A stretch of DNA of 33,965 nt from the IMG/VR virus record IMGVR_UViG_3300033153_005200, positions 1-33,965 of that record. One strand, given 5' to 3'. Under the pieces are notes generated by a model. It saw only the letters and a list, made by a program, of their open reading frames with translations, was not told the DNA's origin and ran no database searches. A program made the translations under genes and the position numbers. This DNA comes from a virus. Shown here one piece after another: positions 2,684 through 30,857 of this stretch. How positions within the stretch are numbered: position 1 is the stretch's first letter; every line of letters starts with the position of its first letter.

Positions 2684-3351
2684 CTATTTTTTGTTTGCTT
2701 CACGGTTGATTTTTTCTAGTTCATCAATAGCAACACTGCACTCCCAAAGGCACATGTCAAGTGCTGATTGGTAGCTTATACCGCCTGTACTTGCAACGCA
2801 GACTCTGGTTGCTGTTCTTGGGTATTCTTCCCTGCCCCTTCCAAGGGCATACCGAAAAAAGAGCACCATTTTACCGCCATGTTGAATGCATCATCTGGGT
2901 GCATCTCTGACCATAACCCAGGAGTCATAACTTGGATGCCATCAACAACACAGACAGATCGCCTTAGAGTTTTACAAGCCATCTTTTGGAAGATGGAAAG
3001 GAACTCTGAAGCATCAACAGTCTCAGCAGAAAGCAGAGCCATGTGGAGCACTTCTTCAATCCCTGCAGCTTCATCTTCAATAGTTTGAGCTTCATCTTTA
3101 AATGCCTTTACAGCTTCACCAGCAACAACTTGGAGGTCATCCTCATCAATGGCATCTCTAAGGTGCTTGCTATTTTTAGCAATCTCCATTTGAGCACGAC
3201 CAATCATCTGCTTGAGTTTGGTGTATTCTTTGACATGCTCCATTCCAGGCTCACGCAACTCAACAAAAGTAGAGTCAGTTGTTTTACCTTTAATGGTGAA
3301 TGGAATTGATCGTTCTAGCTTGTACTGTGCTGTACCTTCATAAATAGACAT
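2684..3351 (-). CDS. Tail assembly chaperone, long form made by -1 ribosomal frameshift
   Basis: Frame 0 runs from 3351; a second frame, -1 relative to it, ends at the TAG at 2684-2686. The overlap contains T TTT TTC (minus strand, 2860-2854) phased exactly as X XXY YYZ in frame 0. Four bases downstream is a 7-bp hairpin, TGCCCTT-GGA-AGGGGCA (2849-2833), suitable as a stimulator. Shifting gives 166 frame-0 residues plus 56 residues of the second frame, about 222 in all. The second-frame tail contains GGISYQSALDMCLWE, which resembles the downstream domain of other frameshifted chaperones. These short and long products (lambda gpG/gpGT is the model) bind the tape measure protein and recruit tube subunits. 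The second frame should not be read as a separate gene. Confidence 0.85.
2776..3351 (-). CDS. Tail assembly chaperone, short (unshifted) form
   Basis: This 191-residue frame-0 product begins with MSIYEGTAQYKLERSIPF and continues with TFVELREPGMEHVKEYTKL, the beta-rich 'elements then helix' pattern seen in tail chaperones of Mu-like and other long-tailed phages. It is acidic and helical in the middle. It lies between the tail tube gene and the tape measure gene, the conserved place for this pair. Past the slippery site at 2860-2854, frame 0 adds about 25 residues rich in Gln, Glu and Gly and then stops at 2776. The protein is expected in the cytoplasm during assembly and absent from the virion. 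The family call rests on position, the frameshift and general sequence character. Confidence 0.85.
   Translation of the reverse strand: MSIYEGTAQYKLERSIPFTIKGKTTDSTFVELREPGMEHVKEYTKLKQMIGRAQMEIAKNSKHLRDAIDEDDLQVVAGEAVKAFKDEAQTIEDEAAGIEEVLHMALLSAETVDASEFLSIFQKMACKTLRRSVCVVDGIQVMTPGLWSEMHPDDAFNMAVKWCSFFGMPLEGAGKNTQEQQPESALQVQAV
2833..2860 (-). promoter_or_regulatory. Programmed -1 frameshift signal: slippery heptamer plus hairpin
   Basis: On the minus strand, T TTT TTC occupies 2860-2854 with the first T as third base of a frame-0 Ser codon. After the four bases GGTA comes TGCCCTT, a GGA triloop and AGGGGCA (2849-2833), which pair over 7 bp with one G-U. The heptamer phase, the hairpin position and the open -1 frame agree with one another. 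Confidence 0.85.
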
Positions 3352-28766: not shown

Positions 28767-28819
28767 GCTTTATCAATTAAATAAGGATATATCAATAACA
28801 AAAGCCTAGGAGGCACAAA

Positions 28820-29401
28820 ATGTCAGATCAAGATGAAGCTTATGAAGCGCCAGAAGTATCAAACATGGTCATTAAGTCAACCGATGCAAAAATGTATGGT
28901 TGGAAGCAAATCAAAGGCAAAGATGCAAAGCCCGCAGTTGAAGCTGTAGCTGGAAAATCCGCTATTGCTGCCATGACTGATGAAGATGGAAATGAAACCT
29001 CCCCAGCCCAGCCAGGTGTAAAAGCTGTTAAAGCACAAGATGCTGTTGAAGCAAAAATTGGTTGCCAGCATGTCCATGTCCAAGCAAAGACTATGGAGAT
29101 TCTTGATGAGTGTATTGCCCGTCTTGCAGCTTTAGGATTCCATTTTGCTGATACTGCTGCCCCTGCTGATACTGAGCATGGTGTTGGCATGTGGATCACC
29201 ATTGGCCCAGAGAAGGAAGATATGACTGCTCTTCGTCAAGCCTTTAAGCAGGTTAAAGGTAAAGAGCACTTCAATGCTCCTGGTCTTGCCATTATTAAAG
29301 AAGAAAAGAAGAAAGCAGCTGCAGAAGCCAAAGCAAAGAAGGATGCTGAAAAAGCTGCCGAAGGCTCTGGTGAAAATGAAGAAGCTGAAGGTGATGAGTA
29401 A
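28820..29401 (+). CDS. Unknown early protein (193 residues), possible ssDNA/replication-associated
   Basis: The product is an acidic protein with low-complexity ends. Residues 30-80 are rich in Ala, Val, Lys and Asp with repeated 'KDAKPAVEAVAGKSAI' and 'GVKAVKAQDAVEAK' strings, reading like near-repeats. The middle (about 85-150) looks folded: HVHVQAKTMEILDECIARLA, FHFADTAAP, GMWITIGPEKEDMTAL. The last 40 residues are a Lys/Glu/Ala tail ending EEAEGDE. I recognise no domain. A near-perfect GGAGGCACAAA precedes the ATG, so it should be strongly translated. A terminator hairpin follows directly. Confidence 0.65.
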   Translation: MSDQDEAYEAPEVSNMVIKSTDAKMYGWKQIKGKDAKPAVEAVAGKSAIAAMTDEDGNETSPAQPGVKAVKAQDAVEAKIGCQHVHVQAKTMEILDECIARLAALGFHFADTAAPADTEHGVGMWITIGPEKEDMTALRQAFKQVKGKEHFNAPGLAIIKEEKKKAAAEAKAKKDAEKAAEGSGENEEAEGDE

Positions 29402-29407
29402 AGGCTA

Positions 29408-29450
29408 ACATTCCAACTAGGTTAATCTCCCCTAGTTGGAGTGTTTGCTT
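29408..29450 (+). terminator. Strong hairpin terminator after the 193-residue gene
   Basis: ACATTCCAACTAGG (29408-29421) and CCTAGTTGGAGTGT (29431-29444) pair over 14 bp with one G-U around a nine-base loop. TTGCTT follows, giving a moderately good T tract. It starts seven bases after the stop. A second small hairpin TAGGTTA-GTG-TAGCCTA occupies 29455-29471. Confidence 0.72.
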
Positions 29451-29506
29451 TATATAGGTTAGTGTAGCCTAGTCCAAATATTCCAAGAGGGTGGGAAGCC
29501 CTATTG

Positions 29507-29620
29507 GTGGTTGTAGTTTAATTGGCAAAACTCATTGTTCGAACCTGAGATAATAACGAGGCAACATGCTAGTATATGCCACAGATATGATGAATGCAGA
29601 TTCAATTTCTGCCAACCACT
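29507..29620 (+). tRNA. tRNA-like gene with an interrupted anticodon arm (114 nt)
   Basis: A perfect 7-bp acceptor stem (GTGGTTG 29507-29513 with CAACCAC 29613-29619), T8 and A9, and a D arm (GTTT/AAAC, loop AATTGGCA with A14, G18G19 and A21) are followed by a perfect 5-bp T arm (GCAGA-TTCAATT-TCTGC, 29596-29612). The stretch between D and T arms is 64 bases, about 40 too long. CATTG (29533-29537) can pair with TGATG (29588-29592) as an anticodon stem, leaving a 50-base loop. If TTCGA is the 5' loop side the anticodon could be CGA (Ser), but this is uncertain. No CCA is encoded. It may be a tRNA with an insertion, a decayed tRNA, or a tRNA-like RNA. Confidence 0.5.
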
Positions 29621-29629
29621 TTTATTAAT

Positions 29630-29890
29630 ATGTGTACACATAAGCAAGCACAAAAATTAGCATATGCAGTTATGTATGATGCATTTAAAGATTTAGGGAA
29701 GGCAAAATTCAGAGAGAATGCAGTGGCATTCTTAACTGGAAATGAAGTTAATTTTTGGGCAGAACTTGTAGAAAGATCTCCAAAAGACATAAAAAGAAAA
29801 GCAAAAGAAATTTATAACAATCCAAAATTATTACCAGAAAAGCTAACAAGGACAGTATCCCACTCTGGGAGAAAGTCAAGATATTCTTAA
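29630..29890 (+). CDS. Unknown small basic protein (86 residues)
   Basis: The product is basic and helical: KQAQKLAYAVMYDAFKDLGK, FLTGNEVNFWAELVERSPKD, IKRKAKEIYNNPK. It might bind nucleic acid but has no recognised domain. An ATG at 29594 would extend it by 12 residues into the T arm of the tRNA-like gene, so the ATG at 29630 is preferred; no clear ribosome site precedes either. Its relation to the tRNA-like element is unknown. Confidence 0.5.
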   Translation: MCTHKQAQKLAYAVMYDAFKDLGKAKFRENAVAFLTGNEVNFWAELVERSPKDIKRKAKEIYNNPKLLPEKLTRTVSHSGRKSRYS

Positions 29891-29920
29891 TAAACATTTA
29901 TTTTAAATAAAAACAGTTTT

Positions 29921-29953
29921 GCCCTTTACTTTTATAATCAGAAAGACTATATT
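29921..29953 (+). promoter_or_regulatory. Early promoter P3
   Basis: TTTACT (29925-29930) and TATATT (29948-29953) are 17 bases apart. GCCCTTTACTT and CAGAAAG two bases before the -10 match P1 in sequence and spacing, so the two promoters share an element beyond the core boxes. It drives the gene at 30004. Confidence 0.7.
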
Positions 29954-30003
29954 GTTAATACAGGAAATGAAAAACTTAAAAACTTAAAAATGAGGAACTT
30001 AAA

Positions 30004-30405
30004 ATGAAAATCAACGAAACTTACAAAGCTCTTTCTGGACCAGAACTTGTTAAAGCCTATAATGAAATGGCAAAGAAGCTTGACAAGCCATCTGTAAAGC
30101 GGTTTGCTTCTCGTTCTGCTGGTATTAAAAGAGTTGAGAAATTAGCTTTAGAGCTTGGGGAAATCGAGAAGGCAGAAAGCCCTAAGAAAGAGAATAAAAC
30201 CTCTGACAAGCCTACTATCAGGATAAAAAAGTCTGCTATAAATAAGGTTAGAAGAACTAAAGGTGCTGTCCAAATGTGCCGTGAGGTTTTTTCAAGAAAT
30301 AATTGTGAAGGCTATACCCGCAAGCAATTTGTTGTTGATTGTGTTGAAGCTGGTGTTAAGAAAGCCACTGCCAGCAGGAATTGGCATTATGTTGGTGGTG
30401 AATAA
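30004..30405 (+). CDS. Unknown early protein, possible DNA-binding
   Basis: The protein has 133 residues and is basic. It begins with SGPELVKAYNEMAKKLDKPS and VKRFASRSAGIKRVEKLALE, a helical pattern I have seen at the start of several phage proteins of unknown function. A Lys/Pro-rich linker follows (KKENKTSDKPTIRIKK), then a second region, KGAVQMCREVFSRNNCEGYT and RKQFVVDCVEAGVKKATASR, reads like a winged-helix or helix-turn-helix unit. A role in phage gene control is possible. It lies behind promoter P3 with GAGGA before the ATG. Confidence 0.65.
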   Translation: MKINETYKALSGPELVKAYNEMAKKLDKPSVKRFASRSAGIKRVEKLALELGEIEKAESPKKENKTSDKPTIRIKKSAINKVRRTKGAVQMCREVFSRNNCEGYTRKQFVVDCVEAGVKKATASRNWHYVGGE

Positions 30406-30461
30406 AATATAGCCTGAGCAAGCCTCTTAACTGCTCATAAACTCAAAAGCGAGGAAATTAA

Positions 30462-30857
30462 ATGGAACAAGTTATACTTGATAATATGAGCTGGGAAGAA
30501 TTGGCCAGTGCTCATACAAAGGCAGCAGGCAATTTAGCTGCAGCAAAATCAGCTGAGATGCAACTAAGAATGCATATTTGTGACCAAGTCCTTTTAGATA
30601 AAATCAAAGGAGTTGCCCACAAAGTTATAGATGGCTTTGACTTTGCTGCTACAGCCAAGATCAATATGAGTATTGATAAGGAACTTCTTGAGAATCTTCT
30701 GCCTGATTTATCTGATACAGAGAAATTGTGCATCAGATATAAGCCAGAAGTAGTGGCAAAGACTTATAATGCTCTTGATTCTAAATCAAAACTACACTTA
30801 GCAGTGACAGCAAAGCCTGGCACACCATCATTAAAAATCAAACCAATAAAGGCGTAA
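30462..30857 (+). CDS. Unknown early protein of the recombination module (131 residues)
   Basis: The product is alpha-helical at the start (SWEELASAHTKAAGNLAAAK), then mixed: LLDKIKGVAHKVIDGFDFAA, ELLENLLPDLSDTEKLCIRY, KPEVVAKTYNALDSKSKLHL. The ending TAKPGTPSLKIKPIKA resembles the end of small phage proteins encoded before Sak4-like ATPases and PD-(D/E)XK nucleases. I give it no family name. GAGGAAATTAA precedes the ATG, and its stop sits one base before the next gene. Confidence 0.65.
   Translation: MEQVILDNMSWEELASAHTKAAGNLAAAKSAEMQLRMHICDQVLLDKIKGVAHKVIDGFDFAATAKINMSIDKELLENLLPDLSDTEKLCIRYKPEVVAKTYNALDSKSKLHLAVTAKPGTPSLKIKPIKA

Follow-up and report, generated by a model that had tools for sequence, protein, structure and literature searches.

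A tRNA-like phage gene with an enlarged anticodon domain, possibly one of a widely distributed set that carries small inserts

Positions 29507–29620 of a virus record (IMG/VR IMGVR_UViG_3300033153_005200; the whole 33,965-base stretch analysed is termed the window) are confirmed as a tRNA-like gene by its acceptor, D and T arms, with an anticodon domain enlarged by ∼40 nt. Most likely, at a rough probability of 0.5, the element is a genuine phage tRNA gene with an interruption in its anticodon domain and belongs, in a loose sense, to a widespread set of tRNA genes carrying small inserts. The features of the element and of its candidate interruptions, all on the plus strand, are as follows.

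29507–29620, the whole element, 114 nt, tRNA-like and interrupted in the anticodon region
29507–29513, 5′ strand of the acceptor stem, GTGGTTG, seven of seven pairs Watson-Crick with 29613–29619
29514–29515, T8 and A9, seen in the sequence and in the Rfam alignment
29516–29531, D arm, GTTT AATTGGCA AAAC, four of four pairs, with A14, G18G19 and A21
29532–29595, 64-nt middle in place of the ∼23-nt anticodon arm plus variable loop, an excess of ∼40 nt
29533–29544, reading 1, putative anticodon stem CATTG (29533–29537) and loop TTCGAAC (29538–29544), anticodon CGA
29545–29587, reading 1, putative 43-nt insertion in the anticodon loop, from the excision test
29588–29592, reading 1, putative 3′ strand of the anticodon stem, TGATG, from the excision test
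29536–29575, reading 2, putative 40-nt insertion after nt 29, read from the sequence
29596–29612, T arm, GCAGA TTCAATT TCTGC, five of five pairs, closed by A53-U61
29613–29620, 3′ strand of the acceptor stem, CAACCAC, and discriminator U73, with CCA not encoded

The sequence-only reading had described the conserved tRNA positions and a perfect 7-bp acceptor stem, and these are borne out, together with A9, the complete D and T stems and U73; all 16 pairs of the three arms are Watson-Crick. The closing pair of the T stem is A53-U61, not G53-C61, a variant shared by 12 of 604 ordinary tRNAs. The covariance-model check proposed at that stage (Infernal/Rfam) gave a match to RF00005 at 40.8 bits (gathering score 29; E = 1.6e-7) in a local search of 301 bases. 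The alignment covers positions 1–71 of the 71 in the model and leaves 54 nt unaligned. The acceptor, D and T arms and conserved letters of RF00005 are present in the element, and its contiguous 5-bp anticodon stem with a 7-nt loop is absent. ARAGORN, a gathering-threshold cmscan of the whole window and an RF00005 genome search all miss the element, so that routine annotation would overlook it. A structural scan (acceptor ≥6, T stem ≥4.2, D stem ≥3.2, with T8, A14, A21 and GG required) recovers it and gives 0 matches in 2.0 Mb of shuffled window sequence; this and the Rfam tRNA score confirm that the element is not a product of chance. The predicted fold of the complete RNA is unremarkable (z −0.95).

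From nt 26 up to the T stem the window element has 64 nt, versus 22–24 in ordinary tRNAs and 22 or 23 in almost all ordinary tRNA genes of the fetched viral loci, and the earlier count of 64 bases with a 40-base excess thus stands. A CATTG/TGATG stem around a 50-base loop had also been proposed. The pairing holds, with three Watson-Crick and two GU pairs closing a loop of ∼50 nt, and a terminal stem of this kind arises in 1.8% of shuffled window middles; the entire middle, however, shows no excess folding over shuffles (z +0.7). The inner GTTCGAAC, described as a second T-loop-like element, is no more than a weak T-arm mimic, because CATTG/CTGAG has two mismatches.

Genes with long middles are found in many other phages. 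An IMG/VR pattern search for a phage-style D arm followed by a T loop 50–82 bases further on matched many contigs, and a related pattern run over 257 Gb of prokaryote genomes matched only seven stretches. The 394 viral loci fetched contain 604 ordinary tRNA genes and 199 distinct genes with middles of 44–85 nt. These middles were compared with shuffled ones for a single contiguous deletion that leaves a canonical anticodon arm (5-bp stem, 7-nt loop). One such excision restores the arm in 125 of the 199 genes at p ≤ 0.05 and in 84 at p ≤ 0.01, the p values resting on single-base shuffles. The excision sites are bimodal, lying at nt 28–30, in the 5′ strand of the anticodon stem, and near 37/38. 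Examples of the former are CT|CGA CTTCTAA TCGAG (locus L232), CGT|CC ATTTTAA GGACG (L264) and GTA|CC ATTACAA GGTAC (L257). Restoration at nt 28–30 needs letters from both sides of the insert, and this site is therefore strong evidence. The loop site is weaker, since long unspliced hairpins can also meet the excision score (L233, L239, L344, L179). Inserts at nt 28–30 show a tendency to start with UA and to end with UU or AU. Intron-free alleles were sought among the fetched loci, where the best identity was 0.82, which is not decisive.

Several loci have features of their own. About 14 (among them L281, L349, L383, L387 and L003) have loop-site inserts with a T-arm-like hairpin of the GG-TTCAANT-CC type. 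Six others (L005, L011, L015, L018, L024, L028) combine an anticodon loop of the CTTATAA type (TAT) with a variable region of unusual length in a 47-nt middle. In a large phage, three tRNA-like genes stand in tandem, their middles being 69, 122 and 63 nt long (L021 at 2650, 2774 and 2952; also L033). The Streptomyces phage Yaboi has an unannotated long-middle element within its tRNA array (L155, about 3133–3247), which is ∼86–100% conserved in the best-matching Streptomyces phage records and for which excision is unsupported (p 0.13–0.30). A RAGATH-1 hammerhead ribozyme (L008, 6740–6812; 78.3 bits) is present in one phage contig that has an interrupted tRNA in addition to a cluster of tRNA genes.

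At the level of the inserts themselves, recurring types are seen. The type-A insert consists of a 5–8-bp hairpin and a short spacer, followed by CAGCAA (hairpin plus NNNCAGCAA); 49 distinct cores were counted, and they interrupt many tRNA isotypes in unrelated phages. Each pair of the stem changes on both sides in some sequences, and the covariation score is 0.94 versus 0.25 in shuffles and at most 0.16 in slid controls, a figure that overstates the pairing because the sequences counted had been chosen for having a hairpin. Independent support for type A is its recurrence, both in model matches and in cultured phages: the covariance model finds further copies outside the training set, and a single locus often has several of them. 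Other recurrent 3′ motifs of inserts are TTCCTA, GTTACTT and GTTATC (types B, C and D).

Type-A-like inserts are present in the cultured Aeromonas phages Ahp1 (where the gene is annotated as pseudo), Aeh1, phiAS5 and AsFcp_2, and in phiWae14. Inserts of this type-A-like kind are also found in the Synechococcus phages B23 and BUCT-ZZ01; in the latter, two unlike tRNA genes (Asn and Met) have inserts that share an identical core of ∼33 nt. The joined exons of the Ahp1 tRNA-Asn are 81–88% identical, across the joint, to the intron-free tRNA-Asn of LG08, BRock and Piffle. The Aeh1 insert sits among three consecutive tRNA-like genes that are all interrupted, one of which is listed as a 122-nt tRNA-Val CAC. 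This cassette (L398, 1052–1436) is the same locus in L399, L400 and L401. Its first gene has a second, internal T arm with paired changes between phages and does not fit the excision model; the double-T-arm element is common to four Aeromonas phages.

The window insert stands apart from the recurring types. The type-A covariance model R1 has no match at 29532–29595 with filters off and E ≤ 10, a motif search finds none of the type B, C and D motifs in the insert, and only a few 8-mers, mostly out of register, are common to the window middle and those of other genes. A first, narrower excision test on the window middle gave p = 0.54; with variable loops widened to 3–6 nt, p was 0.015, a post hoc value, with reading 1 as the best solution. 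The product of reading 1, CATTG|TTCGAAC|TGATG, would have two GU pairs and a 3-nt variable loop. That of reading 2, CAT|AT GCCACAG ATATG with anticodon CAC, would be perfectly paired but would have C33 and a 6-nt variable loop. ARAGORN recognizes the 3′ arm of reading 2 in artificially excised products, a result that is non-discriminating, as the program also accepts 289 of 330 shuffled controls. The two readings are incompatible and compete; either may apply to the window, and neither is decisive. The excision model for this copy is accordingly graded as suggestive only. Among the explanations offered by the sequence-only reading, that of a novel insertion or intron in a tRNA has the best support, which comes mainly from the interrupted genes of other phages.

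The window record represents a tailed phage. Its minus strand has the genes for terminase, portal, capsid and tail, and its plus strand those for methyltransferase and for Sak4-like, SSB-like and HNH proteins. Neither ARAGORN nor a gathering Rfam scan finds another tRNA in the contig. The element lies between a 193-aa gene without an assigned family (28820–29401) and a small open reading frame (29594–29890, 98 aa) whose first ATG is at the edge of the T stem; the 98-aa form has no PHROG match and its 86-aa internal-start form no Pfam match. Directly upstream is a hairpin, CCAAgAGGG-TGGGAAG-CCCTaTTGG (29483–29507), whose end is the first base of the tRNA, and an inverted repeat, CCAACTAGG/CCTAGTTGG (29413–29439), occupies part of the stretch that separates the tRNA from the upstream gene. 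The window proteins searched, which were part of the open reading frames of a possibly incomplete contig, include no recognizable RNA ligase or splicing protein. The sequence-only reading would have been refuted by the lack of a covariance-model match together with a lack of conserved acceptor/T-arm pairing in related phages; the match exists, and DNA, four-protein and tRNA searches found no relative carrying the element in which the pairing might be compared. Positions 28800–30500 have no DNA similarity to phage records. The four-protein search recovered near-identical 4-kb contigs (L002, L038) via other genes, and TerL relatives, at up to 58%, have no interrupted tRNA in the stretches scanned. 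Among 39 relative records, tRNA matches were found in seven, all of ordinary length.

Known systems offer partial parallels. Group I introns are hundreds of nucleotides in length and have a conserved catalytic core. They occur in bacterial and phage genes, including the anticodon loops of bacterial tRNAs (PMC3984707). The phage inserts similarly interrupt tRNA genes, and the spliced product would be a normal tRNA, but they are about 25–57 nt long and have no Rfam group I match. The same is true of the window, where Rfam finds no group I core and the insert is ∼40 nt, in agreement with the earlier remark that it is too small for a known self-splicing intron. Archaeal and eukaryotic pre-tRNA introns are removed by a splicing endonuclease (PMC4090602, PMC8450103). 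The phage inserts resemble these in being small and in having sites that include the canonical 37/38 or noncanonical positions. They differ in occurring in phages of bacteria and in having no bulge-helix-bulge above chance; the central helix of that motif is found at a frequency of 0.08 in excisable inserts and 0.07 in shuffled ones, and helices of this kind are present in five of 66 inserts at nt 28–30 and six of 38 at the loop site, as in shuffles. In addition, the main phage site, nt 28–30, is within the anticodon stem, and type A has a recurrent structured core. The small phage tRNA inserts are most likely neither group I nor bulge-helix-bulge introns.

The tRNAs annotated as pseudo or undetermined in Aeh1, Ahp1 and Synechococcus phage B23 are probably the same kind of object, although the window sequence shows no homology to them. 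In the parts of the literature consulted they are not read as intron-bearing; a table of T4-like genomes, Aeh1 among them, in a genome paper of 2006 lists predicted pseudo-tRNAs and a Val CAC tRNA (PMC1524935). The window element also shares a tRNA-like elbow plus extra sequence with YrlA, other tRNA mimics and tmRNA. Unlike YrlA and tmRNA, it has its arms in normal tRNA order and an open acceptor, and it has no Rfam match to them. Full-text searches of open-access PMC turned up group I introns and archaeal or eukaryotic tRNA introns, but no description of inserts this small in the tRNA genes of phages; with this corpus as the scope, their novelty is provisional.

Could the window element be an RNA that is never spliced? 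The elbow would then be kept for tRNA-handling proteins, with RNase P, the CCA-adding enzyme, EF-Tu or a host defence nuclease as candidate recognizers, while the middle would serve, for example, as a decoy or in regulation. This is unlikely, yet it is the alternative that survives best. It would fit three perfect arms flanking a middle without excess structure, and tRNA supply is a weak motive in a contig that has no other tRNA. Moreover, conserved long-middle elements that resist excision do exist, as in the Streptomyces phages and in the Aeromonas double-T-arm element. Against it, excision restores the anticodon arm in most of the long-middle genes sampled, and neither a conserved motif nor a conserved structure was found in the window middle.

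Somewhat less likely again is a decaying tRNA gene, in which a recent insertion broke the anticodon arm and the other arms are still intact. The unstructured middle, the insert that matches no recurring type and the ambiguous anticodon are all compatible with decay, and a comparable element of a cultured phage is annotated as a pseudo-tRNA. However, all 16 pairs of the acceptor, D and T arms remain Watson-Crick, and the A-U closing pair of the T stem represents a change on both sides from the usual G-C, which suggests continuing selection. A chance assembly, or a group I, archaeal-type or tmRNA-type element, is highly improbable, as the similarity is superficial and is countered by the empty scan of 2 Mb of shuffled sequence, the lack of group I, tmRNA or YrlA matches in Rfam, an insert far too short for group I and, for the set of excisable inserts, a bulge-helix-bulge-like helix that is about as frequent as in shuffles.

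For the preferred reading, an interrupted tRNA gene, we infer splicing from the sequences of the phage genes as a group. The window transcript would fold via its intact acceptor/D/T elbow, its ends would be trimmed by RNase P and 3′ processing, and the insert would be cut out and the halves joined to give a tRNA of ∼73 nt. The excised segment would be either 29545–29587 (loop site, CGA) or 29536–29575 (after nt 29, CAC). Cutting and joining might be carried out by RNA catalysis, or by a nuclease with an RNA-repair ligase. It is possible, at a little under even odds, that the window element and the set form a new intron class of ∼25–57 nt, some members having the hairpin-plus-CAGCAA core, removed perhaps by an RNA-catalysed reaction.

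If spliced, these would be phage tRNA introns outside the group I, group II and splicing-endonuclease types, and they would represent either the smallest self-splicing RNAs or an unrecognized pathway of tRNA splicing in the phage or its host. Interrupted genes escape standard tRNA finders or are called pseudogenes by them, and phage tRNA repertoires are therefore undercounted. Perhaps a split anticodon stem could hide the tRNA precursor from host anticodon nucleases.
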